Part shown: positions 47,381 through 63,886 of the stretch, in pieces
Layout: the number at the start of each line of letters is the position of its first letter
Numbering within the stretch: position 1 is the first letter of the stretch
Source of the DNA: an uncultured Holophagaceae bacterium
Lineage (GTDB): Bacteria; Acidobacteriota; Holophagae; Holophagales; Holophagaceae
Direction: 5' to 3'
Length of the DNA stretch: 64,000 bases
NCBI GenBank assembly: GCA_903857495.1
Contig: CAIOFF010000061.1
Span: 1-64,000, forward strand
Notes under the pieces: model-generated
The model's input: only the letters and a program-made list of their open reading frames with translations
The model's database searches: none
What the model was told of the DNA's origin: nothing
Program-made: the position numbers and the translations under genes

Positions 47381-49242
47381 CAGTCTTCCTCCTCGTCCTC
47401 GTCCGGCACGGCGGCTTTCGGCGCGGTCTCGGAGGCCGCCGCCTCCCGCTTGGCCGCAGCCTCCTTGGCGAGGCGCACGCGCAGCTCGCCCAGGCGCTTT
47501 TCGAGCCCGACCCGCTCCGGGAAGACGAAGGCCAGGGCGCGCTCCCACTGCTCGGCGGCCTCGGCCAGCTTGCCCTGCTTCACCAGGACTTCGCCGAGGT
47601 GCTTGCGGACCTCGGGACTGAAGGGGCTCAGGTCCACGGCCCGCCGCAGGGTGGCTTCCGCCTCGGCGATCCGGCCCAGCTTGAACTGCGCCCAGCCCAG
47701 GCTGTCGACCACGTTGCCGTTGTCGGGTGTCGCCTTGGCGCTGGCCTCGATGAGGGCTGCGGCCTCCTCGAGCTGGACGTCCTGCTCCAGGAGCAGGTAG
47801 CCGAGGTTGTTCTGGACCAGGGAGTTGGCGGGCTCCAGGGCCTGGGCCTCGCGCAGCACGGCCATGGCTTCCGCGTGCCGGTCGAGCTGGTCCAGGGCCT
47901 GGCTTTGCGTGATGAGGCTGTCCACGCTGCGGGTGGGCACCAGTCGGCGGGCCCGCTCCAGGGCCTCCAGGCACTTGTCCCAGCGCGAGAACTCCTGCCA
48001 GAGCGCTGCCATGCCCTCGAGGTGCAGATTCTCCACGGCCGCACGGGCATCCTTCCGGGAGAAGAAATTGTATTCGAGATAGTTCGACGGCAGCTTGGCC
48101 GCCTGCTTGAAGAAGGGCAGGAGCGGGAAGCGGGCGACCCCCTCCCGGAGGGCGGCCAGGGCGCTCGGCCAGTCGTTCTGGCTGACGTGGGCCTGGACCT
48201 TGAAGACCTGCGCCTCGCCGTCGGTGCGCGGCCGGGGCGGTCGGTTCTGGAGGAAGGTCAGCAGCACCTTGCCCTTGCCCTGCAGCAGCAGGGCCTCGGC
48301 ATAGAGCATGTGGGCGCCGTCGCCGATCCAGTCCGCCTCGATGGGCTGCGCCACCAGCACGCTCAGGCGGGCCTCGGCCTCGGCGAAGCGGCCCAGGTTC
48401 ATGAGGGCCCGCGCGGTGTGGAAGGTGAGGTTCGGACTGCCCTTGATGGCTTCGGCCTTGGCCAGCGTCTCGAGCGCCTCCGCAAACCGCGCGGTCTGCA
48501 TGCGGATGAGGGACACGTTCTCCCAGAGTCCCGCTTCCTGGGGCAGGTGCCGGGCCAGCAGGAGGAAGCTCTCTTCGGCGTGAGCCAGGTAGCCCAGCTT
48601 GATCTGCTCCCGGGCCAGCTCTTCCAGCAGGCGCAGGTGCCGGTCCTCGGCGCCGCGGGCGTTGAGGGCCAGCAGGGCTTCCCGCTTGCCTTCATAGCTC
48701 TGGGTGGCCCGCGCGTGGATCAGGGCCCGCTCCCAGGCGGGGCTGAAGCCGGGCCGCATGCGGCCCAGGCGCAGCCAGGCCTTGAGCGCACCCTCGCCGT
48801 CCTTGAGCTGCTCGGAGACCTCGCCCAGGCGCGCCCACAGCTCGGGGTCCAGGGGCAGGCGCTGGGCCGCGGCCCGTAGCTCCTTCGCGGCCTGGGGTCC
48901 CAGGGAGGGGTCCTTCTGCATGCGCTGGTACTGCAGCAGGGCCAGGTGGGCCTGGGCCTCGGCATTCTGGGGGGCGAGCTCCACGGCGCGCCTGGCGGGG
49001 GCCACGGCGGCATCCGGTTCATCTGCCTCCTGGAGGGCCTCGGACAACCGGAGGTTCGCCTCGGCGCTCTCCGGCACCTGGGCGAGCACGCGGCGGTAGA
49101 GCGCCGCAGCAGCCTTGGGATCCTCCCCCCCGCCCCGCAGCTGGAGCGCCCGGGCCTGGAGCATGAGCGCCCGCACATCCTCGGCGGAGGCAGGCGCCGC
49201 TGCCAGGAACAGGGCGAGAAGGGGGGACCGGAGGTCAGGCAC
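47380..49242 (-). CDS. Exported TPR-repeat protein
   Basis: 620 residues. An N-terminal signal peptide (SPLLALFLAAAPASAED) is followed by about 15 tetratricopeptide-like helices from 25 to 590 (SAEANLRLSEALQEADEPDA; AEAQAHLALLQYQRM; NSLVQNNLGYLLLEQ; GNVVDSLGWAQFKLGRIAEA). The tail is acidic (PDEDEEED). It is probably periplasmic or outer-membrane-associated and scaffolds a protein complex. The GTG start overlaps the aroB stop by 8 bases. It is the third gene of the M28-aroB-TPR-small protein operon. Confidence 0.85.
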   Translation of the reverse strand: MPDLRSPLLALFLAAAPASAEDVRALMLQARALQLRGGGEDPKAAAALYRRVLAQVPESAEANLRLSEALQEADEPDAAVAPARRAVELAPQNAEAQAHLALLQYQRMQKDPSLGPQAAKELRAAAQRLPLDPELWARLGEVSEQLKDGEGALKAWLRLGRMRPGFSPAWERALIHARATQSYEGKREALLALNARGAEDRHLRLLEELAREQIKLGYLAHAEESFLLLARHLPQEAGLWENVSLIRMQTARFAEALETLAKAEAIKGSPNLTFHTARALMNLGRFAEAEARLSVLVAQPIEADWIGDGAHMLYAEALLLQGKGKVLLTFLQNRPPRPRTDGEAQVFKVQAHVSQNDWPSALAALREGVARFPLLPFFKQAAKLPSNYLEYNFFSRKDARAAVENLHLEGMAALWQEFSRWDKCLEALERARRLVPTRSVDSLITQSQALDQLDRHAEAMAVLREAQALEPANSLVQNNLGYLLLEQDVQLEEAAALIEASAKATPDNGNVVDSLGWAQFKLGRIAEAEATLRRAVDLSPFSPEVRKHLGEVLVKQGKLAEAAEQWERALAFVFPERVGLEKRLGELRVRLAKEAAAKREAAASETAPKAAVPDEDEEED

Positions 49243-50299
49243 GGGGGAACTCCTGGCGGAGCAGGGACAGCATGCGGGCGTGGGCGGATTCCCAGACGCT
49301 CGGTGGCAGCAGGCGCTGGATGGCCGGCTCGGCGGGGCGCGGCAGGATGCAGTAGATCTCGATCACCGAGGCGGCGTCCGCGGGCTCGGCGGCGCGCCGG
49401 GCCTTCTTGTCCCGCGCCAGCAGCGGCAGACAGGCCGACCAGGGCGCCACCAGGGGCGCCAGCGGCGCCAGGCGCTGGGCCATGGCGTCCAGCAGCGGCG
49501 CCGGGAAGGGCTTGAGGTTCTGCTCTTCCGCCAGGAGGCAGGTACCCAGCAGGCCCAGGCCCACGGACTCGCCGTGCAGCAGCTGGTAGCCCGAAGCCGC
49601 CTCCAGGGCGTGGCCCAGGGTATGGCCCAGGTTCAGCAGGCGCCGCTCGCCGGATTCCCGGGGGTCGCGGTGGACCACACCAGCCTTGAAAGCCAGCGCC
49701 CGCTCCACCCAGGAGAACTTGACGGGACCGTCCTGGAGCATCTCCTCCGCCCAGGCCATCTCGCCCAGGATGAGGGCGGTCTTGATCAGCTCCCAGCGGC
49801 CGTTCTCGACGTGCCGCTCGGGGAGGGAGGCCAGAAAGTCCGTGCAGGCCACCAGCCTCCGGGGGGCGTGGAAGGCGCCCACCAGGTTCTTGCCGGCCTC
49901 CAGGTCGGCACCGGTCTTCCCTCCCAGGGCCGCATCAGCCATGGCCAGCAGCGTGGTCGGCCACACCTGCCACGCCACGCCACGCAGGTAGAGCGAGGCC
50001 GCGAGGCCCGTGAGATCCGACAGGACGCCGCCGCCGAGGGCCACCACCGTGAGGTCCCGGTGGAAGGGCGCCCGGGCCCAGTGCTCCAGCCAGGGCAGGA
50101 TGGTGCGGAGGTTCTTGTCCTCCTCCGGCACGGAGACCCAAAGGGCCTGGGGCGGCTCCGGCATGCCGGCGCCGAGCCAGGCTTCGCGGAGGGCCTGATC
50201 GCCCACCAGGGTCCAGGGGCCCTCGGGCAGCAGGTCGCGCTCCGGAGCCTCCAGAAGGAAGACCTCGGTGGCGAACCCGGAGGGCGTGGCCAGTCTCAC
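49235..50299 (-). CDS. aroB: 3-dehydroquinate synthase
   Basis: 354 residues, slightly shorter than usual. The NAD/substrate motifs ALGGGVLSDLTGLAASLYLRG, WPTTLLAMADAALGGKTGAD, VKNGRW-like VENGRWELIKTALI, RRLLNLGHTLGHALEAASGY and LLHGESVGLG are all present. It cyclises DAHP to 3-dehydroquinate, second step of the shikimate pathway. Its GTG start shares a base with the M28 gene stop. The usual partner aroK is not adjacent but is fused to thiE at 54160. Confidence 0.93.
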   Translation of the reverse strand: MRLATPSGFATEVFLLEAPERDLLPEGPWTLVGDQALREAWLGAGMPEPPQALWVSVPEEDKNLRTILPWLEHWARAPFHRDLTVVALGGGVLSDLTGLAASLYLRGVAWQVWPTTLLAMADAALGGKTGADLEAGKNLVGAFHAPRRLVACTDFLASLPERHVENGRWELIKTALILGEMAWAEEMLQDGPVKFSWVERALAFKAGVVHRDPRESGERRLLNLGHTLGHALEAASGYQLLHGESVGLGLLGTCLLAEEQNLKPFPAPLLDAMAQRLAPLAPLVAPWSACLPLLARDKKARRAAEPADAASVIEIYCILPRPAEPAIQRLLPPSVWESAHARMLSLLRQEFPRA

Positions 50300-52056
50300 T
50301 AGCGGCCCTTCAGGGTTGCTTCGGCCTTCATGAGCTGGTCGCCGCGCAGCCACTGGATGACTGCCTTGTCGCCGGGCTTGTAGCTGCCCAGGACGCCCAT
50401 GTAGTCGTAGATGCTCTTGATGGGCTTGTCCCCGAACTGCACCATGATGTCGCCCGCCTGCATGCCGATGGTCTCGGCGGTGGAGCCCTTGCTCACGCCG
50501 TTGATGCGGAAGCCCTTGGCGTTGTCCGCGTAGTCCGGCAGGGTGCCGAAGGCGATGCGCATGGGGCCGCCGTCGCCCTTCATGGGAATCTTGGCCGTCT
50601 CGGCGTCCCAGGCCGGCAGCATATCCGCATTGGCGAGGTCCAGCGTCACCGCCTTGCCGAAGACGGCGAGGCGCGCCATGCCCGCGAAGTTGATGAGGTC
50701 CGCCGTGTCCGTGGGCCGGTGGTATTCCCCGTGGATGCCTGTGAAGAAGAAGAAGGTCGGGATCTTGGCCTGGGAGAAGGTCATGTGGTCCGAGCCACCC
50801 ACGCTGGCGCCGACATCGGCGCTCACGGAGAAGTCCTTGGGCACGAACTTCTGCGCGGCCTCCACGGCGGACTTCGGCGCGCCGAGGCCGCCCATCATGA
50901 GCTTGGGCGCCTTCAGGTCCAGCCGACCCACCATGTCGAAGTTGAGCATGAACTTCACGGACTCCAGCGGCTGGGTGGGGTGCTGCACCCAGTACTGGGA
51001 GCCCAGGAGGCCCTCCTCTTCCCCGCCGAAGTGCAGCACGAGGATCGAGCGCTTCGGCTTGGCCTGCTTCAGCTGCCGGGCCAGCTCCACGACCATGGCC
51101 GTGCCGGAGGCGTTGTCGTCGGCCCCGGGGTGGACCTGCCCGCGGCCCTCGGCGCCCGCCATGCTGTGGCGCTCGCCCATGCCGAGGTGGTCCATGTGCG
51201 CGCCGATAGCGATGAACTCCTTCTTCAGCTTGGGATCCCGGCCGGGAATGACGGCCACGACGTTGGGCACCTGGGCCTCGGCACGGCTCAGCTTCAGGTC
51301 AAGGTTGAGGGCCGTCCAGGGCGCCAGCACGAAGTCCTGGCTGGCGGGCTTGCCCGTCTCCTTGATGGTCTTCAGCCGGGCCACCAGGTCGCCGCAGTTG
51401 GCGGCGAGGGCCTCGGCGGTGATGCCAACCACGGGGATCTCCAGCTTCACCGGACCCTCTTCGCGCAGCAGGGAGCGCACGCCGTTCTCCTCGAGCACGA
51501 TGACGCCCGCCACCTTGGCGGCTTCCAGGCGCTTCAGCCGGGCCAGCAGGCTGCGATCCATGCGCGGCAGGTGGGCGAAGATGTCGAGGTCGGGCACCGT
51601 GCGGGCGATGACCGCCACGTGGCCCTTCAGGTCGATGCCCGCGAAGTCATCGTAGCCCCCGGGGATCTGGACGCCGTAGCCGAGGAAGGCCAGGGGACGG
51701 TTCCGGAAACCCGCGTCGGCGCTGAGCCCCAGGGCCTCGATGTCCTTGCCCCACACCAGGGGCCGGAGGCTGTCGCCGTGGACCAGGGCCGCATCCTGGC
51801 TCTCCCGGACCACCTTGGCGATGAAGGGGAAGTGCTGGAGCTGCGTCTTCAGGCCCAGGGCCTTGAGCTGCTTCTCGATGCGCCGGGCGGCCTGTTCCAG
51901 CTCGGGATAGCCGTTGCCACGCCCCTTCAGCTCCGGAGCCGCGAGGAAGGTCACGTCCTTCCGGAGCCGGGCCTCCGTGGCCTTGTCCAGGCTGGCCTGA
52001 GCCGGCGCCTGGGCGACAAGGCTGGTGGCGATGAGAAAGAGGGTCCAAGGGCGCAT
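50299..52056 (-). CDS. Secreted M28 aminopeptidase with PA insert and C-terminal PDZ domain
   Basis: 585 residues. Signal peptide (LFLIATSLVAQAPAQA), a PA-type insert (about 95-215: HVAVIARTVPDLDIF), then an M28 core with the zinc ligands AHMDHLG, GADDNASGTA, FGGEEEGLLG, NFDMVGR and EYHRPTDTAD. A PDZ domain (about 490-570: KGFRINGVSKGSTAETIG, GDIMVQFGDKPIKS) ends the protein. Bi-zinc exopeptidase of the periplasm or outside; PDZ may bind C-termini or partners. It is the first gene of a tightly overlapping operon into aroB. Confidence 0.92.
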   Translation of the reverse strand: MRPWTLFLIATSLVAQAPAQASLDKATEARLRKDVTFLAAPELKGRGNGYPELEQAARRIEKQLKALGLKTQLQHFPFIAKVVRESQDAALVHGDSLRPLVWGKDIEALGLSADAGFRNRPLAFLGYGVQIPGGYDDFAGIDLKGHVAVIARTVPDLDIFAHLPRMDRSLLARLKRLEAAKVAGVIVLEENGVRSLLREEGPVKLEIPVVGITAEALAANCGDLVARLKTIKETGKPASQDFVLAPWTALNLDLKLSRAEAQVPNVVAVIPGRDPKLKKEFIAIGAHMDHLGMGERHSMAGAEGRGQVHPGADDNASGTAMVVELARQLKQAKPKRSILVLHFGGEEEGLLGSQYWVQHPTQPLESVKFMLNFDMVGRLDLKAPKLMMGGLGAPKSAVEAAQKFVPKDFSVSADVGASVGGSDHMTFSQAKIPTFFFFTGIHGEYHRPTDTADLINFAGMARLAVFGKAVTLDLANADMLPAWDAETAKIPMKGDGGPMRIAFGTLPDYADNAKGFRINGVSKGSTAETIGMQAGDIMVQFGDKPIKSIYDYMGVLGSYKPGDKAVIQWLRGDQLMKAEATLKGR

Positions 52057-54159: not shown

Positions 54160-55308
54160 ATGCTGTCCCTGCCGCCGCTCTATCCGATCACCGACGCCAC
54201 CCGGGCAGAGTCTCTGTCGGCGCAGGTGCGGCGCTTGGGTGAGGCGGGATTTCCTCTGGTGCAGTTCCGGGGCAAGCCGCTGGACGGTCGGGCCCAGTGG
54301 GTGGAGTTGCGGGCGGCGCTGGCGGAGGCCTCGGCCAACGGCGGCTGGCCCCAGATCTGCGTCAATGACCGGGCGGACCTGGCGATGCTGGCGGCCCGGG
54401 AGGGGCTGGCACCCTGGGGCCTGCACCTGGGCCAGGGCGACCTGCCTGCCACCGAGGCGGCACAGCTGCCAGGCCTGGGCCGCTGCCACTTCGGCGCTTC
54501 GACCCATGCGCCCGCCGAGTGGGAGGCGTCCGAGGCCGGCTGCGACCATGCCGGCGTCGGTCCCTTCCGGGGCACGGCCACCAAGGCGGACCACGCGGAG
54601 CCCATCGGCCTGGAAGGCCTGCGGGCGGGTTGCACGGCCCTGCGGTCCCGGGACCTCGCGCCCATCGCCATCGGCGGCCTCACCGCCGCCGATGCGCTCG
54701 ACTGCTTCGCGGCCGGTGCCGAGGCCCTGGCCATGGTGGGCGAGCTGCACCGGGGCGGGGACCTCGCGGCGCTGGGCTGGGCGGTCCAGCGGCAGCGCTG
54801 GCAGGTGCGTCCCCCGTTCCGAGCCGGACAGGGCGTCGTCCTCCTGGGCGGCAGCGGCGCCGGGAAGACCACCGTGGCCAAGGAGCTGGCCCAGCGGACG
54901 AACCTGCCCTTCCACGACCTGGACGCGGTCATCGAACAGCGGCAGGGCCAGCCCATCAGCGCCATCTTCGCCGCGGCCGGGGAGCCGGCCTTCCGGGCCC
55001 TCGAGGCAGAACACCTGGCCTCCCTGCTGGGGAGCCCGGCCATCGTGGCCCTGGGTGGCGGCGCCTGGGAGGCTCCGGCCAACCGGGCCACCGTGGCCGC
55101 CAGCGGCTTCGCGGCCCTGTGGCTGGCCGAATCGCCCCTGCGCGCCTGGGCCCGGGTGGGCCGGGATCCAAACCGGCCCCTCGCCCAGGACCGCGCGGCC
55201 TTCATGGCCCGCTGGGCGGCGCGGGTGCCTGCTTGGTCCCTGGCCCCCATGGCCATCCCATTTGGTCACAGTTCCCGGGAGTTGGCCTCCGCCTTGCTAG
55301 ACTGTTAG
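54160..55308 (+). CDS. Thiamine-phosphate synthase - shikimate kinase fusion (ThiE-AroK)
   Basis: 382 residues, two complete enzymes in one chain. Residues 1-215 are ThiE-like: LVQFRGKPLDG, CVNDRADLAM, GLHLGQGDLPATEA, GASTHAPAEWEAS, HAGVGPFRGTATKAD and PIAIGGLTAADA. From about 225 a shikimate kinase follows: VVLLGGSGAGKTTVAKELA (Walker A), FHDLDAVIEQRQG (Asp substrate contact), ISAIFAAAGEPAFRALEAEHL, IVALGGGAWE, lid GRDPNRPLA. The two activities are thiazole-P plus HMP-PP coupling, and shikimate phosphorylation. They are in different pathways; the fusion fits a supply need for chorismate precursors only loosely. No stop or frameshift separates them. Confidence 0.9.
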   Translation: MLSLPPLYPITDATRAESLSAQVRRLGEAGFPLVQFRGKPLDGRAQWVELRAALAEASANGGWPQICVNDRADLAMLAAREGLAPWGLHLGQGDLPATEAAQLPGLGRCHFGASTHAPAEWEASEAGCDHAGVGPFRGTATKADHAEPIGLEGLRAGCTALRSRDLAPIAIGGLTAADALDCFAAGAEALAMVGELHRGGDLAALGWAVQRQRWQVRPPFRAGQGVVLLGGSGAGKTTVAKELAQRTNLPFHDLDAVIEQRQGQPISAIFAAAGEPAFRALEAEHLASLLGSPAIVALGGGAWEAPANRATVAASGFAALWLAESPLRAWARVGRDPNRPLAQDRAAFMARWAARVPAWSLAPMAIPFGHSSRELASALLDC

Positions 55309-56081: not shown

Positions 56082-56777
56082 ATGGTCAATGTTTCCTTCC
56101 TCTCCGCCCACGTGCTCGAGCAGTTCCTCATCCAGGCCCGGCTCACCCGGGCGGTGGCCAGCCTCCGCCTGCAGAAGGCCAACTCCCGGCTGCTGGGCGA
56201 TCTGCGGATCCACAGCTTCCGCGCGGGTGCGACGCTCGAGCTGTCCGGCCTCCACGCCCGGGACCTGGTGCCCGTGGAAGGCACGCCGGTGACCCTCACC
56301 GTCCTCCTGGGCGACGAGGTGCTGAGCCTGGAGTCCGAGCTGCTGGCGCCCATCCAGGACGAGGAGGGGCACACCCTGCTCCACCTCCGCTGGCCCCACG
56401 AGCCCGCCCACCTGCACCGCCGCCGCGACATGCGGGTGGCCGGGCCCGATCAGTCGCCCCTGAAGGTCCAGGTGACCCTGGGGGACCGCAAGCTGGAGGC
56501 CCTCCTGGTGAACCTCACGGAGACCGGCGTGGGCCTCGCCTTCGAGGAGGCCGTGATGGTGGACCTCCACGCCGCCGTGGAGATCGACGCGGAGCTGCCG
56601 GACGGCGCCATCCTGCACTGCCCCGGTGAGGTGCGGCACCTGAACTTCCTCGAGGGCCAGGACTATCCCACCCGCCTGGGCATCGTGCTCCATCCGCTGC
56701 CGGGCACCGACCTCGAGCCCATCCACCGCTTCATCCAGGCCCGCCGCACGGATCGCTCCCACTCAACCGCACGCTAG
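56082..56777 (+). CDS. PilZ-domain c-di-GMP receptor
   Basis: 231 residues. An N-terminal YcgR-like flap (about 30-110) is followed by a PilZ domain from about 112: the RxxxR c-di-GMP motif is RRRDMRV, and the second motif NLTETGVGLAF corresponds to D/N-x-S-x-x-G with Thr in place of Ser. It couples cyclic di-GMP to motility or exopolysaccharide output. Its stop codon TAG overlaps the stop of the convergent gene on the other strand. Confidence 0.85.
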   Translation: MVNVSFLSAHVLEQFLIQARLTRAVASLRLQKANSRLLGDLRIHSFRAGATLELSGLHARDLVPVEGTPVTLTVLLGDEVLSLESELLAPIQDEEGHTLLHLRWPHEPAHLHRRRDMRVAGPDQSPLKVQVTLGDRKLEALLVNLTETGVGLAFEEAVMVDLHAAVEIDAELPDGAILHCPGEVRHLNFLEGQDYPTRLGIVLHPLPGTDLEPIHRFIQARRTDRSHSTAR

Positions 56778-57175
56778 TTGGTGCCGGGGATCTCCTCTGC
56801 CGACGCCGCCAGGGTGCGCTTGATGGGCAGGAAGCAGACACCATCCGGGCCCTCGGTGCAGGGCTGGTAGGTCACGAGCAGCCGGACCGGGTCCTCCAGC
56901 TTGCGGCCCGCCAGCGCGAGGCGCACGGTGCCGCGCAGGATCGGGTCACCGGCGTCGTCGATCTCGCTGGTGGCGGGCAGGGGGGCGCAGGTGAGGGAAC
57001 CCCTGGAGACCAGGGCCACCTTGAAGCTGCGGGCCTTGAGGTGCACGTTGTCCGGCAGCCTCAGGAACAGCGCGCCCCCGGCCACGCTGAGCGCGACATC
57101 CTTGGCAGGGTCGAAGCCTGCGGCGGAAAGGGCCTGCGCGGCCACCATCAGGAAGGGGATCAGGACACGTCGCAT
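56774..57175 (-). CDS. DsbD-alpha-like periplasmic redox protein
   Basis: 133 residues with a signal peptide (FLMVAAQALSAAGFDP). The mature part is beta-rich. Two cysteines near the end, Cys106 and Cys114, sit in TYQPCTEGPDGVCFLPIKR, matching the DsbD alpha domain (YQGCAD..CYPP). It could relay electrons to a periplasmic thioredoxin-like protein such as the TlpA fusion upstream in the same operon. A full DsbD transmembrane partner is not in the window. It begins 4 bases after apbE ends. Confidence 0.72.
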   Translation of the reverse strand: MRRVLIPFLMVAAQALSAAGFDPAKDVALSVAGGALFLRLPDNVHLKARSFKVALVSRGSLTCAPLPATSEIDDAGDPILRGTVRLALAGRKLEDPVRLLVTYQPCTEGPDGVCFLPIKRTLAASAEEIPGTN

Positions 57176-57179
57176 GGCC

Positions 57180-58142
57180 TCAGGCTCCAGCAGGAAGGTC
57201 GGAAATCCGGGCCATGCCCGAGGTGGCCAGGAGCTCCCCGGCCTCGGTAATCAGGGCGCCTTCCACAGAGGGCGTCGCTTCCAGCAGCTGCAGGCCACAC
57301 TCCGGCCCCAGCAGGAAGGACGCGGTGGCGAGCCGCCCGGCCTCGGCGGCCGTGGGCGCCACCACCGTGGTGGAGGCGAGGCCTCGGGCGGGCCAGCCTG
57401 TGGTTGCATTGAGCAGGTGGTGGTAGCGCACGCCGTCCACCTCGAAGCCGCGCTCGTAGTCCCCGGAGGTGGCCACCCCGCAGTCGGCTTGGGCGCGGAT
57501 CGCGAAGCGGCAGCGGGCGCGGTCCCGGGGATCCTGCACACCGATGAGCCAGGGCGCGCCATCGCCCCGCCGCCCCACGGTGCGCACATCCCCCAGCAGG
57601 TTCACCATGGCCGATTCCACGCCCCGGGCCTTGAGCAGCTCGGCCACGCGGTCCGCGGCGTACTCCTTGCCGACGCCGCCCAGGTCCAGCTCCATGCCCT
57701 CCCGGGCCAAGCGGACCGTGCCGTGGCTCAGCTCCACGGCCCGGTGGTCCACGCGGGTCAGCAGGGCCTGGATGGCCGCCTCCGCGGGCACCTCGGCCCG
57801 CTTGAAGTCCCAGACCTGGCGCAGCACCCCCACGGTGGGGTCGAAGCGGCCCCCAGTCAGACGCGCCAGCTCCAGGGCACTTCGCACCAGGGCCTCGGTC
57901 TCGTCGTCCACCGCCAGCGGGGCGCCGCCGGCCTCGTCGTTGAGCTGGCCCACCACACTGGTGGCGCGGTAGCGGCTGAACTTCTGCTCGATGCGCCGAG
58001 CCTCGGCCACCGCCTCGCGGCCCAGGCGGGTGGCGGCAGCTTCGCCGCGGTCGTCCACGAACTTCAGCAGCGCGTCGCCCCCCATGAGCGGGAAGCGCAC
58101 GGTGTAGAGGGTCCGCTCCAAGGCGGGGGTCAGTACTTCCAC
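57180..58142 (-). CDS. apbE: FAD:protein FMN transferase
   Basis: About 320 residues. ApbE motifs are present: FSRYRATSVVGQLN, DPTVGVLRQVWDFKR, LDLGGVGKEYAADRVAELL, VNLLGDVRTVG, ATSGDYERGF, YHHLLNATTGWPA and the C-terminal Mg-binding TVVAPTAAEAGRLAT. It moves FMN onto Thr of extracytoplasmic redox proteins. A GTG (58142) overlaps the DUF3570 gene end; an ATG at 58085 is an alternative start without the first 19 residues. No signal peptide is seen, so the exported state or membrane localisation is uncertain. Confidence 0.9.
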   Translation of the reverse strand: MEVLTPALERTLYTVRFPLMGGDALLKFVDDRGEAAATRLGREAVAEARRIEQKFSRYRATSVVGQLNDEAGGAPLAVDDETEALVRSALELARLTGGRFDPTVGVLRQVWDFKRAEVPAEAAIQALLTRVDHRAVELSHGTVRLAREGMELDLGGVGKEYAADRVAELLKARGVESAMVNLLGDVRTVGRRGDGAPWLIGVQDPRDRARCRFAIRAQADCGVATSGDYERGFEVDGVRYHHLLNATTGWPARGLASTTVVAPTAAEAGRLATASFLLGPECGLQLLEATPSVEGALITEAGELLATSGMARISDLPAGA

Positions 58143-59356
58143 TTCAGGCCCAGGGTGACGGTGGTGGCGTTGACATCCGCTGCGGAGGTGGCGGGGCCCG
58201 CATAGATCGCCGGGAGGCTGCCGCTGCCCGCGGTCTTGAGCGGTGTCACCTGGTCCCGCCCCGACTGGAGCTGGTAGGAGGCTCCGAGGCTTAAGGTGAG
58301 CCCTGGCTTGAGGTCCACGGCGACGGCACAGCCCAGGAGGAGGCTGCTGAAGGCCGACAGCCGGTAGTCCGCCGACATGAAGGGCTGGGCCGCATCGAAG
58401 CGGGCGCCGTAGAAGGAGGCTGCGCGCTGGCTGTAGGCCCGCAGGCGCGGCGTCAGGATCCAGCCTTCGTCCAGGTGCTGGTCGTAGGTGAAGTCCAGGG
58501 TGTGCGCCTTGATGCCCCAGTCGTCCGTGTAGTAGCGGTAGGAGGTCTTGAGGGCCCCGTCCCATTCGAAGTAGTGGGCGTGCTTGACCAGGAAGGCATC
58601 CCGGACGCGGGTGTCCGGCCGGTGCTCGCCCTGGGTGAGGCTGCCCACGGTCACGATGAGGTAGGGTTCATCCAGGTAGCCGCTCAGGTTCATGCGGGAG
58701 GCGCTGAAGTCGATCAGGTCCTCGGCGCCCAGAATCCAGGTCCAGCCCAGGGCGTAGCCCCGGGTCTTCTTGGGCAGGCGCAGGGTGCTGGTCACCGGGG
58801 CCACGGTGTCGTTGGCCAGGGACAGTCCGTAGTGGAGGGTGCCGCGCCCCTGAGCCATGGTCCAGGCATCCGAGAGCCCGAAGCCCTGGGAGGTGTAGTC
58901 CTTCTCCACGGAGTGGGAGATGTCCACCGTGGGGAGGTGGGCCCCGATGCGGCGGCCCCAGGTGAAGCCCTGGGCATTGCGTTCGTCCATGTACTGGACC
59001 ATGGGGATCTTGCCCGCGGCGTTGGTGGTCCGGTTGCCCGAGGCCGAGGTGGTGGTCGTGACGCTGAGGGTGGGATAGCCGCCCGTGGGCGAGGCCCCGG
59101 AGACGCTGTCGTGGGCGAGCAGCAGATCAATCTGCCCAAGGGCCTCGCTCAGCTCGTGGTGCAGCAGCAGCGTGGGGCTCTTCACCTGGGTGCGGCCATC
59201 GGTCTCGTTGTAGAAGAGGTAGCGCAGCTCCACAGCGGACTGGGCCAGGGCCACCCGGCCCGTGAGGATGCCCATGCCGGCCACCATCCAGGGCAGGCCC
59301 TGGAGCGCCAGACGACCCCGCCGCCGGACCTTGCGCGCGCGCTCAGTTGCAGCCAC
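58130..59356 (-). CDS. DUF3570 outer-membrane protein
   Basis: About 408 residues. A signal peptide (GLPWMVAGMGILTGRVALAQ) precedes a beta-barrel-type protein rich in aromatic and alternating residues (ELRYLFYNETDGR; RGYALGWTWILGAE; VTLGLKWKY), ending in an aromatic residue as in outer-membrane barrels. The GTG at 59356 has GGGAGG 6 bases upstream; an ATG at 59407 would overlap the previous gene more. DUF3570 proteins regularly neighbour DUF4266, TlpA and ApbE. Role unknown; a redox or metal-linked envelope role is inferred. Confidence 0.85.
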   Translation of the reverse strand: MAATERARKVRRRGRLALQGLPWMVAGMGILTGRVALAQSAVELRYLFYNETDGRTQVKSPTLLLHHELSEALGQIDLLLAHDSVSGASPTGGYPTLSVTTTTSASGNRTTNAAGKIPMVQYMDERNAQGFTWGRRIGAHLPTVDISHSVEKDYTSQGFGLSDAWTMAQGRGTLHYGLSLANDTVAPVTSTLRLPKKTRGYALGWTWILGAEDLIDFSASRMNLSGYLDEPYLIVTVGSLTQGEHRPDTRVRDAFLVKHAHYFEWDGALKTSYRYYTDDWGIKAHTLDFTYDQHLDEGWILTPRLRAYSQRAASFYGARFDAAQPFMSADYRLSAFSSLLLGCAVAVDLKPGLTLSLGASYQLQSGRDQVTPLKTAGSGSLPAIYAGPATSAADVNATTVTLGLKWKY

Positions 59357-60065
59357 AGCCACCTCCCGCCGCGCCGCCATTGCCCGCGGCCCCTTCCTTG
59401 CTGGCATGGATGTGCTCCCGGAAGAAGCCCGTGAGGGTGTCCCCGTCGAGGCTCATGATGGGATCCGCCAGGTGGCCCCGGCGCCAAGCCTTCAGGCTGC
59501 CTGTGGCCTGCAGCCCTGAAGCGACGCGGACCTCCTTCGGCGCCGGGCTGCCGGCCAGCAGGGCCGCCACGGCCGTGGCCTCTTCCTGGACATGCGCCCC
59601 GCCCTCAAAGCGGGCTGCGATGCGGCCCTCACGGTCGATGAGGAAGGTGGTGGGCATGGCCACCACCGAGAAGGCCTCCCCGGTGCGGCCCGTGGCATCC
59701 TGCAGGATCGTGAACTGCACCGGGACCTGCTCCAGGAAGGCACTGACCGCGGCCGTCTCTTCGTCCAGCGAGATGCCCACCACCTTCACGCCCTGGCCCG
59801 CGAACCGGCTCTGGAGCTTGTCCAGCTCGGGCATGCTCTTGCGGCAGGGGCCGCACCAGGAGGCCCAGAAGTCCACGACCACCACCTGGCCCTTGAGCGC
59901 CGCCAGGGAGAAGGCCTTGCCCTTCGAGTCCTTCAGCTGCACCTCCGGCGCCGGGTCGCCCTTGCCGGCAGCAGACAGGCTGGACCCCGCCAGGAAGAGG
60001 GCCGCGCTTAGCGCCAGCCAGGCCAGGCGGCCGGGAAATCGGGGGGATGGGTGCAGTGCGAGCAT
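59343..60065 (-). CDS. TlpA-like thioredoxin fused to DUF4266
   Basis: 240 residues from an ATG with AGGAG. Signal peptide (LAWLALSAALFLAGSSLSAA), a TlpA/ResA thioredoxin domain with Cys71 and Cys74 (FWASWCGPCRKS) and cis-Pro AMPTTFLID, to about 170. Residues about 187-240 are DUF4266: AWRRGHLADPIMSLDGDTL, FREHIHASKEG and the Cys-rich end GGGCGCN. Elsewhere DUF4266 is usually a separate small lipoprotein; here it has no lipobox of its own. The stop overlaps the DUF3570 start by 14 bases. First gene of the four-gene operon. Confidence 0.88.
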   Translation of the reverse strand: MLALHPSPRFPGRLAWLALSAALFLAGSSLSAAGKGDPAPEVQLKDSKGKAFSLAALKGQVVVVDFWASWCGPCRKSMPELDKLQSRFAGQGVKVVGISLDEETAAVSAFLEQVPVQFTILQDATGRTGEAFSVVAMPTTFLIDREGRIAARFEGGAHVQEEATAVAALLAGSPAPKEVRVASGLQATGSLKAWRRGHLADPIMSLDGDTLTGFFREHIHASKEGAAGNGGAAGGGCGCN

Positions 60066-60221: not shown

Positions 60222-60530
60222 CTACCCCCCACCCCGCTGGAACCCCCGGTGGAAGCGGGCCATGAAGGCTGCCACCTGCGCCTCGGAGTGGCCCTCGAAG
60301 GTCAATTCCACCCGGTGCCTGACCAGCGACAGGCGCCCGAGCCGCAGGGGCTCCAGGGGCTGGAGCGCCAGCGACCAGCGCCGCACACCCTCTGTGTGCC
60401 GGAAGACCCCATCTGCCCCCGCCTGCGGCGTGAGGCCCACGGCCTCGGGCAGCAGGCGCAGGAAGTCCTCCCGGCTGATGGTCATCTCCAGGCTCAGCCG
60501 CTGGTCCCGGGGAGCCTCGTCCCTAGCCAC
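60222..60530 (-). CDS. Hypothetical protein of the AOR operon
   Basis: 102 residues from an ATG overlapping the MoaD-like gene end by 8 bases. The sequence has a helical N-terminus (SREDFLRLLPEAVGLTPQAG) and a beta-rich end (WSLALQPLEPLRLGRLSLVRH, VELTFEG). No motif recognised; coupling to MoaD and AOR suggests involvement in tungstopterin cofactor or enzyme maturation, which is inference. Confidence 0.65.
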   Translation of the reverse strand: MARDEAPRDQRLSLEMTISREDFLRLLPEAVGLTPQAGADGVFRHTEGVRRWSLALQPLEPLRLGRLSLVRHRVELTFEGHSEAQVAAFMARFHRGFQRGGG

Positions 60531-60777
60531 CGGCGACGGGGGGCCAGATGGCCAGGGCCTGGCCCGCTTCCAGCACCTTCGTGGCCCGGTCGCCTACGGC
60601 CACCCACACCCCATCCACCAGCACGATGGCGCACTCCCCCGACTGCAGGCCCATGAGCTGGATCACCGCCAGGACCGTGGTGCCGGGCTCGAGGTCCAGC
60701 TGCAGGCAGTGGCTGGACCGCGCCTCCGCCGGGAGGCGGATGCTGAGGGACGCGAACAGCTTGAGCGTGATCTTCAT
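60523..60777 (-). CDS. MoaD/ThiS-family sulfur carrier
   Basis: 84 residues with the ubiquitin-like fold (MKITLKLFASLSIRLP, DLEPGTTVLAVIQLMGL, VLVDGVWVAVGD) and the C-terminal Gly-Gly (PPVAGG) that is adenylated and thiocarboxylated in MoaD. Placed directly behind an AOR-type oxidoreductase operon, it is likely a dedicated sulfur carrier for the tungsten pterin cofactor. The ATG overlaps the stop of the FAD reductase gene (ATGA). Confidence 0.85.
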   Translation of the reverse strand: MKITLKLFASLSIRLPAEARSSHCLQLDLEPGTTVLAVIQLMGLQSGECAIVLVDGVWVAVGDRATKVLEAGQALAIWPPVAGG

Positions 60778-62018
60778 GCCAGGCGATGCGCCGCCGCGAG
60801 GTAGGCCGGCATGACCAGCGTGGGGTCGTCCAGCAGGCGCTGCTTCCAGGGGCCCAGCCGCAGCTTGCCTTCGATGAGCCCGCGCAGGGCGCCGACGTGA
60901 TCGGTGAAGCCCACGGTGTTGGCGCCGACCAGGCGGTCGCCGTCGAACTGCAGGTTCATGTAGCGGTAGCGGGCCTCGTCCAGCAGCTCGGTGGACTCCC
61001 CACCGGGCACGCCCTCCCACTCGCCGAAAGACGAGGAAACGAGGCCAAGGGTGGTGAGTACGTTGAAGACCAGGCTCCCCTGGAAGGCCGTGGGCTTGCC
61101 GGCCATGTTCAGTGCCGCGATGCGCCCCTGCTCCACGGCGTTGGGCTGGATGGCGTTGACCTGACGCTTGCCGCTAAGGCAGTCCACGGACTCGGCCACA
61201 TCCCCGGCGGCGTAGATGCCGGGCACGCTGCTCTGAAGGTTTGCGTCCACCACGATGCCCTGGTTGATCTCGATGCCGCTGCCGGCCAGGAACTCCAGGT
61301 TCGGGTCCACGCCCACGGCGCTGAGGTAGACATCGGCGGGCAGCACCCGCCCCTCGCCCAGGTCCACCTGGAGGACGCCGTCCTTCTGGCTCAGGCCCTT
61401 GGGCTGGGTGCGGGTCAGGATCTTCACGCCCTTGGCCTCGCACCAGCGCCGCAGCATGTTGCTGGCGGCGGGGTTCATCATGCGGCGGACCATGTAGCCG
61501 CTGCGCACCAGGATCGTCAGGTCCACGCCCTTGGAGAGCAGGCCCTCCATGATGATGCAGCCCACGAAGCCCGCGCCCATCTGGACGACGCGGGTGCCCG
61601 GCTTGGCCTTGGCCAGGATGGCGCGGGCGTCGGCGAGGGTCCAGCAGGCCTGGACCCCGGGCAGGTCGATGCCCGGGATCTTCTCCAGGCTGGGCCGGGA
61701 GCCGGTGGCGATGAGCAGGCGGTCGTAGGCCAGGAGACTGCCCTCGCCCAGGTCCACGGTGCGGGCGGCGGTATTGACGGCGTGGGCGCGGGCCTGGACC
61801 AGACCGATGCGCAGGCGCTGGAAGTGGTCCGAAGTCTTTCGGAGGTGAGTGCCCTCCTCGCCGATGTCCCCCCGGAGCAGGTAGGGGATGGCCATGCGGG
61901 AGTAGGGCGCCTCCCCTTCGCCGCAGAGCATGAATATCTCTGCGGCGGGGTCGGCCTTGCGCAGGGTCTCCGCGGCAACCACCCCCGCGGGACCGCTTCC
62001 GATGATGACGTGTCGCAT
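60774..62018 (-). CDS. FAD/NAD(P)-dependent oxidoreductase of the AOR operon
   Basis: 414 residues of the pyridine nucleotide-disulfide oxidoreductase type: FAD site HVIIGSGPAGVVAAETL, NAD site VVQMGAGFVGCIIMEGL, and GIYAAGDVAES. There is no CxxxxC disulfide; the Cys in IFMLCGEGEAPYSR is near the position of the NADH-oxidase redox Cys. It likely transfers electrons between NAD(P)H and the ferredoxin/AOR system. The start is the ATG giving MRHVIIGSG. It follows aor by 17 bases. Confidence 0.88.
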   Translation of the reverse strand: MRHVIIGSGPAGVVAAETLRKADPAAEIFMLCGEGEAPYSRMAIPYLLRGDIGEEGTHLRKTSDHFQRLRIGLVQARAHAVNTAARTVDLGEGSLLAYDRLLIATGSRPSLEKIPGIDLPGVQACWTLADARAILAKAKPGTRVVQMGAGFVGCIIMEGLLSKGVDLTILVRSGYMVRRMMNPAASNMLRRWCEAKGVKILTRTQPKGLSQKDGVLQVDLGEGRVLPADVYLSAVGVDPNLEFLAGSGIEINQGIVVDANLQSSVPGIYAAGDVAESVDCLSGKRQVNAIQPNAVEQGRIAALNMAGKPTAFQGSLVFNVLTTLGLVSSSFGEWEGVPGGESTELLDEARYRYMNLQFDGDRLVGANTVGFTDHVGALRGLIEGKLRLGPWKQRLLDDPTLVMPAYLAAAHRLA

Positions 62019-62035
62019 GAGGATCCTGGGCTGGG

Positions 62036-63886
62036 TCAGAGGCTGAGACGGGTGCGGGTGGCGGCGGTCGGAACGCCCTCGGCGCTCCACCCGCGGACCT
62101 CATAGTACTCCGGCAGCATCTTGTCCAGGTGGCACACGGCGCCCTTCTGGGGGCCGGTCTTGATGGCCTCCGTCAGCAGGCGGGGCGGCAGGGTGTCATC
62201 CTTCTTGCTGAGGCCCGCGCCCAGGTTGAACTCGCGCTCCAGGTTCCAGATGCGCTCGCCGACCAGGAGCAGCCGCTCCTCGGACCAGTCGCCCTCGCAG
62301 GCGGCCTGGATCTGGGGCTGGATGTCCTGCAGGCCCCACGCGAAGGTGGTGAAGAGGCAGATGCCGGCGGAATCCACCACGGCGGTGAGGTCCTGGAAGG
62401 CCTTCAGCATGGCGGGCTTGCCCTCGGTGGCCTGGGGCTCCATCTTCACGGGGATGCCCAGCACCTCGGGGGAGACCATGTAGCCGCGGACGTGGCAGGC
62501 GCCGCGGTTGCTGGTGGCGTATTCCAGGCCCATGCCCTGCAGGCCGCGGCCATCGTAGGCCGGGAACTCCTGGCCTTTGACGGTCATGGACAGCTCGGGA
62601 CGGCCATACTTGGCGCAGAGCCGCTTGGAGCCGAGGCCGATGATCTTGCCGAAGCCTTCGCCGACGGCGGTCCACTCCGCGAGCTTGACCAGGGCCTCCG
62701 CGGAGCCCCAGGTCAGCTTGAGGCCCACCTCGGCCTCGGTGAGGATGCCCAGGTCGTAGAGCTCCATGGCCGCGCCCACGGTGGCCCCGAAGGAGATGGG
62801 GTCGTAGCCGTCCTCGTTGCAGAGGAAGTTGGCGTAGGTGAGGGCTTCCAGGTCCGACACGCCATTGGCGGCGCCCAGGGCCCAGGCGGCCTCGTACTCC
62901 ACGCCGCCGGAGGCGCCGTGGTACTGGGGCTTGTCCTTCACGCTGAAGTGGTTCGGATCCATGCGGGAGATGCGGCCGCAGGCGATGGTGCAGCCGAAGC
63001 AGGCGCCGTTCTTCACCAGGTTGGGCTTGCCGTCCGTGGGCCGCTTCTCGTGCATGGCCTCGCCGCCGATGGCGTTGGCGCCCTCGAACTGCGCCTCGCG
63101 GTGGTTGTAGCTGGGCAGCGCGCCCAGCTCGTTGATGATGTTCATGAGCACCTGGGTGCCGTAGGTGGGCAGGCCCACGCCGGTCACGCCGTTGGCCGCC
63201 AGCACGGCCTTGCCCGCGTCCACGGCCGTGAAGAAGGCCTCGGGATTGGCCACCTGGTAGGCATCGGTGAGCGTGCCGCGCACGGCCACGGCCTTGAGGT
63301 TCTTGGAGCCCATGACCGCACCCACGCCGGACCGCCCCGCGGCGCGGTGCAGGTCGTTGACGATGGCGGCGTACATGACGCCCGACTCACCGGCGCGGCC
63401 GATGGAGGCCACGCGGATCTGGGGATCCTGGTGCGCCTTCTTGATGGTCTCCTCGGTGTGCCAGGTGGTCTTGCCCCACAGGTGGGAGGCGTCCAGCAGC
63501 TCAGCCTTGCCATCGATGATGAGCAGGTAGACCGGCTTCGCGGAGCGGCCCTCGAAGATGACCATGTCCCAGCCCGCGAACTTCAGCTCGGCGCCGAAGT
63601 AGCCGCCGGAGTTGGAGCAGGCGATGGCGCCCGTGAGGGGCCCCTTGGTCACCACGGAGTAGCGGCCGCCCGTGGCGGCCATGGTGCCCGTGAGAGGACC
63701 GGTCACGAAGATGAGCTTGTTCCCTTCTGCCAGGGGATCGACCTTGGGATCGATCTCCGAGCAGAGGTACTTGGTGGCCAGACCCCGCTGGCCCAGGTAG
63801 TCCTGGGCCCACTGCTGGTTCAGCGGCTCGGTGGTGCAGGTGCCCGCCGTGAGGTTGACGCGAAGAACCTTCTTAGTCCATGCCAT
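62036..63886 (-). CDS. aor: Tungsten-dependent aldehyde:ferredoxin oxidoreductase
   Basis: 616 residues of the AOR family. The N-terminal beta domain is typical (VLRVNLTAGTCTTEPLNQQW, RYSVVTKGPLTG). Four cysteines for the [4Fe-4S] cluster are Cys296, Cys299, Cys303 (NGACFGCTIACGR) and Cys510 (DSAGICLFTTFA). The segment MGSKNLKAVAVRG and the DGYDPISFG region bind the bis-pterin tungsten cofactor. It oxidises aldehydes to carboxylates (or reduces acids) with ferredoxin. The gene lies between a ferredoxin-like gene and the FAD reductase, so electrons probably pass to NAD(P). Confidence 0.93.
   Translation of the reverse strand: MAWTKKVLRVNLTAGTCTTEPLNQQWAQDYLGQRGLATKYLCSEIDPKVDPLAEGNKLIFVTGPLTGTMAATGGRYSVVTKGPLTGAIACSNSGGYFGAELKFAGWDMVIFEGRSAKPVYLLIIDGKAELLDASHLWGKTTWHTEETIKKAHQDPQIRVASIGRAGESGVMYAAIVNDLHRAAGRSGVGAVMGSKNLKAVAVRGTLTDAYQVANPEAFFTAVDAGKAVLAANGVTGVGLPTYGTQVLMNIINELGALPSYNHREAQFEGANAIGGEAMHEKRPTDGKPNLVKNGACFGCTIACGRISRMDPNHFSVKDKPQYHGASGGVEYEAAWALGAANGVSDLEALTYANFLCNEDGYDPISFGATVGAAMELYDLGILTEAEVGLKLTWGSAEALVKLAEWTAVGEGFGKIIGLGSKRLCAKYGRPELSMTVKGQEFPAYDGRGLQGMGLEYATSNRGACHVRGYMVSPEVLGIPVKMEPQATEGKPAMLKAFQDLTAVVDSAGICLFTTFAWGLQDIQPQIQAACEGDWSEERLLLVGERIWNLEREFNLGAGLSKKDDTLPPRLLTEAIKTGPQKGAVCHLDKMLPEYYEVRGWSAEGVPTAATRTRLSL

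Follow-up and report, generated by a model that had tools for sequence, protein, structure and literature searches.

What an ApbE flavin transferase modifies, and where the electrons of the modified protein go, is the question raised by a four-gene locus in the window, a stretch of 64,000 nucleotides from an uncultured Holophagaceae bacterium. The functions of DUF3570 and DUF4266, both encoded at this locus, have been an open question since 2021. Here a gene fusion, a structural model and the predicted location of ApbE together give a specific and testable chain.

The operon and its published relatives

The four reading frames, originally described as overlapping or abutting, are present on the minus strand with overlaps of 14 and 13 nt and a gap of 4 nt (Table 1). 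Pfam secured three of the gene calls, namely the fusion protein (Redoxin/AhpC-TSA, TlpA-like, 6e-31; DUF4266, 7e-19), DUF3570 (4e-63) and ApbE (2e-77). The fourth protein (133 aa) scored below the threshold for DsbD_N (18.8 bits versus a cut-off of 25); its assignment comes from 46% identity over 112 residues (E 1e-28) to the alpha domain of the full-length DsbD encoded elsewhere in the genome, with a shared CTEG..GVC cysteine pair.

Table 1. Genes of the operon and predicted flavin sites, in window coordinates
Feature	Position	Strand	Basis and remarks
TlpA-like thioredoxin fused to C-terminal DUF4266	59343..60065	-	Pfam; 240 aa
DUF3570 predicted barrel, putative flavin carrier	58130..59356	-	Pfam; proposed start GTG 59356; longest-ORF start ATG 59407
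ApbE flavin transferase	57180..58142	-	Pfam; start GTG 58142; no signal peptide
Lone DsbD alpha domain, signal peptide and CTEGPDGVC redox pair	56774..57175	-	weak Pfam DsbD_N; 46% identity to genomic DsbD alpha
Predicted flavin site 1, SGAS	59090..59101	-	FMN predicted on last Ser, codon 59092-59090
Predicted flavin site 2, TSAS variant	59039..59050	-	FMN predicted on last Ser, codon 59041-59039

The most likely start of DUF3570 is the proposed GTG, which is preceded by a Shine-Dalgarno-like GGGAGG and overlaps the end of the fusion gene by 14 nt; the alternative ATG would lengthen this overlap to 65 nt. Many loci of other phyla likewise have the DUF3570 start codon inside the last DUF4266 codons (frame ..RLRMQL..). 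The ApbE start, 13 nt inside the DUF3570 gene, is supported by relatives, some of which have ATG at the equivalent place, and the DsbD-alpha gene starts 4 nt after ApbE. A consensus search found no promoter or terminator at the operon and is uninformative at this G+C.

The closest named loci belong to uncultured Holophagaceae (97–99% for DUF3570). Chance grouping is excluded since genes for ApbE, DUF3570, thioredoxin and DUF4266 cluster in about 95 loci across many phyla. The original gene calls and the prediction of an envelope redox operon were right. Clusters of these genes, often with DsbD, were described by Meheust et al. 2021 (PMC8238504). In the window the ApbE gene adjoins the DUF3570 gene, and a thioredoxin-like domain and a DUF4266 with C-terminal CXC are both present, fused in one gene. 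The operon is thus very probably a DUF3570 flavinylation operon of the published kind. It shares with the published clusters (PMC8238504) the gene set, a predicted pair of DUF3570 sites and the C-terminal CXC of DUF4266, but differs in the thioredoxin–DUF4266 fusion, the absence of the lipid anchor, the reduction of DsbD to a lone alpha domain and a second site that reads TSAS rather than [ST]GA[ST].

Predicted flavin sites, barrel model and ApbE location

That the four proteins hold no obvious flavinylation target, as first reported, proved wrong: DUF3570 carries SGAS and a TSAS variant, and its family is a proven ApbE substrate, the Chlorobium luteolum protein being flavinylated at two such sites (PMC8238504). 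Site 1 stands in the context HDSVSGAS; D-S-V-S-G-A-S at 59110-59090 is one residue off D-G-[IV]-[ST]-G-A-[ST], and SGAS fits [ST]GA[ST] exactly. Site 2, 17 residues further on, occupies a homologous column with a variant that is also common in Bacteroidota. A lone [ST]GA[ST] is weak evidence, arising in 11% of shuffles of the window DUF3570 (0.8% with D three residues before), and the case for the sites therefore rests on column conservation. In an alignment of 65 homologues, of which 62 rows were scored at the site columns, 56 have A[ST] at site 1, 53 have it at site 2 and 49 have it at both. The homologous columns follow the pattern D-x-x-[ST]-x-A-[ST], then shortly after [ST]-x-A-[ST]; the relative L110 has TGAS at site 2, and in Bacteroidota copies both sites read [ST]SAS. 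By these sequence criteria the window DUF3570 is a predicted ApbE flavinylation target with one or two sites.

DUF3570 had been thought to resemble an outer-membrane barrel, and a confident AlphaFold model (65 sequences; pLDDT 87, pTM 0.84) agrees, predicting a closed 16-strand outer-membrane barrel; the C-terminus is aromatic, ending ..LGLKWKY. The best structural matches of the model are 16-strand outer-membrane barrels (BamA, Z 22.4; PelB, 21.5; PgaA, 20.7; BcsC, 18.8), and a search by sequence found no relative of solved structure. The loops after odd strands measure 5, 36, 2, 8, 22, 4, 25 and 28 residues and the turns after even strands 3, 8, 4, 4, 4, 2 and 2, indicating the orientation of known outer-membrane proteins, with the odd strands directed outward. 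The two flavin sites are Ser51 and Ser68 when the mature protein is numbered from the Gln at 59242, and they fall in the 36-residue loop between strands 3 and 4. Judged by strand order, there may be an FMN pocket at the outward mouth of the barrel; the flavin loop has a low pLDDT of ~40 in the model and could reach down into the lumen. The 23 residues that are invariant or nearly so, among them R88, D115, R236, Y238, D240, D241, R268 and Q272, are all found in the outer half or outer loops, which hold 238 of the 370 residues overall (p 3e-5).

The operon ApbE begins MEVLTPALERTLYTVRFPLMGG from its GTG, leaving no room for a signal peptide, and has no lipobox. Signal peptides are likewise missing from 75 of 86 cluster ApbEs by a simple and crude hydrophobicity rule, many of the 86 being close Flavobacterium relatives; inspection by eye adds about three exported ones. 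The exported ApbEs come from the Thiohalobacter/Thiogranum group, large-genome Holophagae relatives (L118-L122) and one Nitrospirota locus. The missing signal peptide, here and in most relatives, suggests that the flavin is attached before DUF3570 export. In its main text the published survey applies a signal-peptide filter and leaves ApbEs without one undiscussed (PMC8238504). In its co-expression experiments, proteins without signal peptides were produced in the E. coli cytosol, and DUF3570 was mostly in the pellet yet flavinylated (PMC8238504), indicating that modification of the unexported chain is possible. The flavinylated chain would presumably then be exported by Sec; Tat export was considered as an explanation for a cytosolic ApbE and set aside, as the DUF3570 signal peptides show no consistent twin-arginine motif. 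A cytosolic ApbE, also without signal peptide, serves Klebsiella fumarate reductase (review PMC12052999), but that substrate is cytosolic whereas DUF3570 is predicted to be an exported outer-membrane protein.

The genome has just one other ApbE (contig C1); it carries a signal peptide, and its neighbours include a barrel-like protein and the only FMN_bind protein of the genome. With an FMN_bind gene beside the second ApbE, the operon ApbE is, on gene neighbourhood, most simply the dedicated partner of DUF3570. ApbE targets elsewhere had been named as the observation that would count against the original hypothesis; a check of this point turned up the second ApbE, with its own FMN_bind gene nearby. 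That second flavinylation cluster (L132, G000:C1, 4308-7543, minus strand) comprises the exported ApbE, a barrel-like BBP2 protein, a weak FMN_bind match and an integral membrane protein without Pfam match.

The thioredoxin–DUF4266 fusion and the DsbD alpha domain

The fusion protein has a signal peptide without lipobox, a WCGPC motif encoded from 59858 and the C-terminus GGGCGCN (CGCN at 59357-59346). DUF4266 ends in C-G-C plus one residue in 89 of the 91 loci scored, which matches the idea, raised at the outset, of a small Cys-containing redox factor. In loci outside Acidobacteriota, DUF4266 is a lipoprotein encoded by a gene of its own, mostly next to that of the thioredoxin; within Acidobacteriota the fused form occurs in Holophagaceae and under six further family codes. 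On the DUF3570 tree the fused loci fall into two groups, one consisting of Holophagaceae and four other family codes, the other (f26, f6) sitting among separate-gene lines of Gammaproteobacteria and Acidobacteriota. Two label changes account for this distribution, a single origin appeared in 0% of bootstrap trees, and a tree with one fused clade was rejected (p-AU 0.003); the tree being that of the neighbouring gene, these figures exclude, under the model, one fusion inherited together with DUF3570. By this phylogenetic reading the TlpA–DUF4266 fusion arose at least twice in Acidobacteriota. No DUF4266 lipobox was seen in either fused group. New here, together with the barrel model, the ApbE without signal peptide and the lone DsbD-alpha, is that the fusion, twice and each time without the DUF4266 lipid anchor, ties thioredoxin to a C-terminal Cys-Gly-Cys tail.

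In the model of the fusion protein the thioredoxin domain is confident, and the pLDDT of the DUF4266 part drops from ~55 to 32 toward its CGC end. A flexible arm would be expected to look like this, although a low pLDDT can also come from sparse data. In yeast Erv2, electrons reach the flavin by way of a C-terminal CXC arm (PMC4019985). Erv2/ALR sulfhydryl oxidases resemble the proposed DUF4266 tail in placing a flexible terminal cysteine pair near a flavin, but are not homologous, bind FAD non-covalently in a helical domain and pass electrons from thiols to oxygen.

In a gammaproteobacterial MAG the cluster thioredoxin reads WASWRGPC and lacks one active-site Cys (L041:7103-7594, plus strand), and one acidobacteriotal cluster (L161, G374:C9) has two adjacent DUF4266-like ORFs, the second partial. 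A read-through ORF at L040, considered as a natural DUF4266–DUF3570 fusion, is unconvincing, as the frame slips just before the CGC codons.

Elsewhere the genome encodes two PF02683 proteins, a canonical DsbD of 590 aa (contig C5) and, next to a thioredoxin, a CcdA-like protein (contig C20). The DsbD transmembrane domain PF02683 is absent from the window operon, which has the alpha domain alone; the published survey includes 316 clusters without DsbD (PMC8238504). In the Sulfurimonas and Magnetococcales loci a full-length DsbD directly follows ApbE, a position that in the window is thus held by the alpha domain by itself. The lone DsbD-alpha occurs in all nine of nine DUF3570-bearing genomes and otherwise, across 25 congeneric genomes, only in G011. 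There (L163, G011:C9 39000-46000; 3401-4140, minus strand) a TlpA without DUF4266 tail runs into a DsbD-alpha fragment, and DUF3570 and ApbE are gone; judged by its gene content, the locus is an operon remnant.

A candidate electron path and its alternatives

The path that we favour, with moderate confidence, would start with cytosolic ApbE attaching FMN to one or two DUF3570 serines, probably before export and folding. DUF3570 would then insert in the outer membrane, its FMN loop at, or folding into, the outer end of the barrel. Electrons from inner-membrane DsbD (contig C5), with the operon DsbD-alpha as adaptor, would reduce the WCGPC pair of TlpA in the periplasm and pass to the terminal Cys-Gly-Cys of the flexible DUF4266 tail that TlpA carries. 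This arm would hand them to the DUF3570 FMN, from which they would leave for an acceptor that lies outside or within the barrel; ferric iron as this acceptor is guesswork. Inference supplies the sequence of carriers and the direction of flow, the timing of flavinylation ahead of export, the CGC–FMN contact and the acceptor. The evidence drawn from sequence or model consists of the operon, motifs, fusion, fold, signal-peptide-less ApbE and co-occurrence, with flavinylation of a homologue taken from PMC8238504. The twice-arisen fusion points to which two proteins work together, the model to where the flavins may sit, and the missing ApbE signal peptide to attachment before export. Taken together, these suggest that thiols and flavins may have at the outer membrane the role that multiheme cytochromes play in other systems.

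Several features speak against this path. A periplasmic arm must cross the barrel if the flavins face outward; the low-confidence flavin loop may fold back into the lumen; the operon has no full DsbD gene; site 2 has Ser in place of Gly, the known flavinylated form being [ST]GA[ST]; and the window ApbE has Asn for Asp, so that its activity is not assured. A bolder version is unlikely: a heme-free outer-membrane route in which cytosolic ApbE flavinylates the barrel before export and electrons travel through the barrel to surface flavins on a swinging CGC arm that belongs to a periplasmic thioredoxin. Mtr-type porin-cytochrome conduits (MtrCAB) have a barrel, MtrB, that is larger than 16 strands. 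The likeness is one of analogy: in both cases an outer-membrane barrel is thought to let periplasmic electrons out, but DUF3570 has 16 strands and no heme, with thiol/disulfide chemistry and covalent FMN instead.

If the flavin loop folds inward, as its low confidence allows, the flavins would face the lumen or periplasm and, with no electrons leaving the cell, serve periplasmic reduction of a metal or cofactor, for example in iron uptake, which would be in keeping with the VIT1 iron transporter found in 25 clusters (PMC8238504). We regard this as rather unlikely: both sites follow an odd strand on the long-loop side, the most conserved residues all lie in the outer half, and the genes directly flanking the operon showed no obvious iron transporter.

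A further alternative has the same parts work in the opposite direction. The flavinylated barrel would then take electrons from periplasmic thiols for disposal in the manner of a sulfhydryl oxidase, oxidising TlpA or supporting disulfide formation, and no outside acceptor would be reduced. Against this, TlpA/ResA proteins and DsbD act as reductants, and DsbD or its alpha domain recurs in or beside the cluster. In its favour, Erv2, the closest mechanistic analogue of a CXC arm beside a flavin, is an oxidase (PMC4019985), sequences do not fix the direction, and Meheust et al. say that reversal is possible in flavinylated systems (PMC8238504). On balance this reverse flow appears unlikely, and we retain the outward path from DsbD.

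A third possibility is that the operon is decaying in this genome. The ApbE motif is usually written H-x-x-D-P-x-T-G; the window ApbE reads HHLLNATTG, with Asn where its three nearest relatives have Asp (HHLLD). DUF3570 was found in only 12 of 37 congeneric genomes searched, and the G011 remnant has already lost the middle genes, keeping a tail-less TlpA and the DsbD-alpha fragment. However, all four frames are intact with conserved starts and overlaps, and the same Asn occurs in the L116 ApbE and in Bdellovibrio-type ApbEs (HHIINPLTG), which makes decay improbable. The original hypothesis of a small Cys factor that is exported by DUF3570 or modified by the operon is very improbable: DUF4266 does have the small size and the Cys end, and its gene nearly always neighbours that of the barrel, but DUF4266 is an ordinary lipoprotein in most lineages and the tail of a folded thioredoxin in two, this one included, and it has no [ST]GA[ST], whereas DUF3570 has one and DUF3570 flavinylation has been shown (PMC8238504).

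Just upstream of the operon (60222-63886, minus strand) lie genes for aldehyde ferredoxin oxidoreductase, a pyridine-nucleotide oxidoreductase and a MoaD/ThiS-like protein and a 102-aa ORF without Pfam match. The aldehyde ferredoxin oxidoreductase genes were considered as operon members and rejected, their position being kept only in the closest relatives. On the plus strand, at 54160-55308, a 382-aa ORF joins thiamine-phosphate synthase (PF02581) to shikimate kinase (PF01202), an unusual pairing; 3-dehydroquinate synthase is encoded at 49235-50353 on the minus strand.
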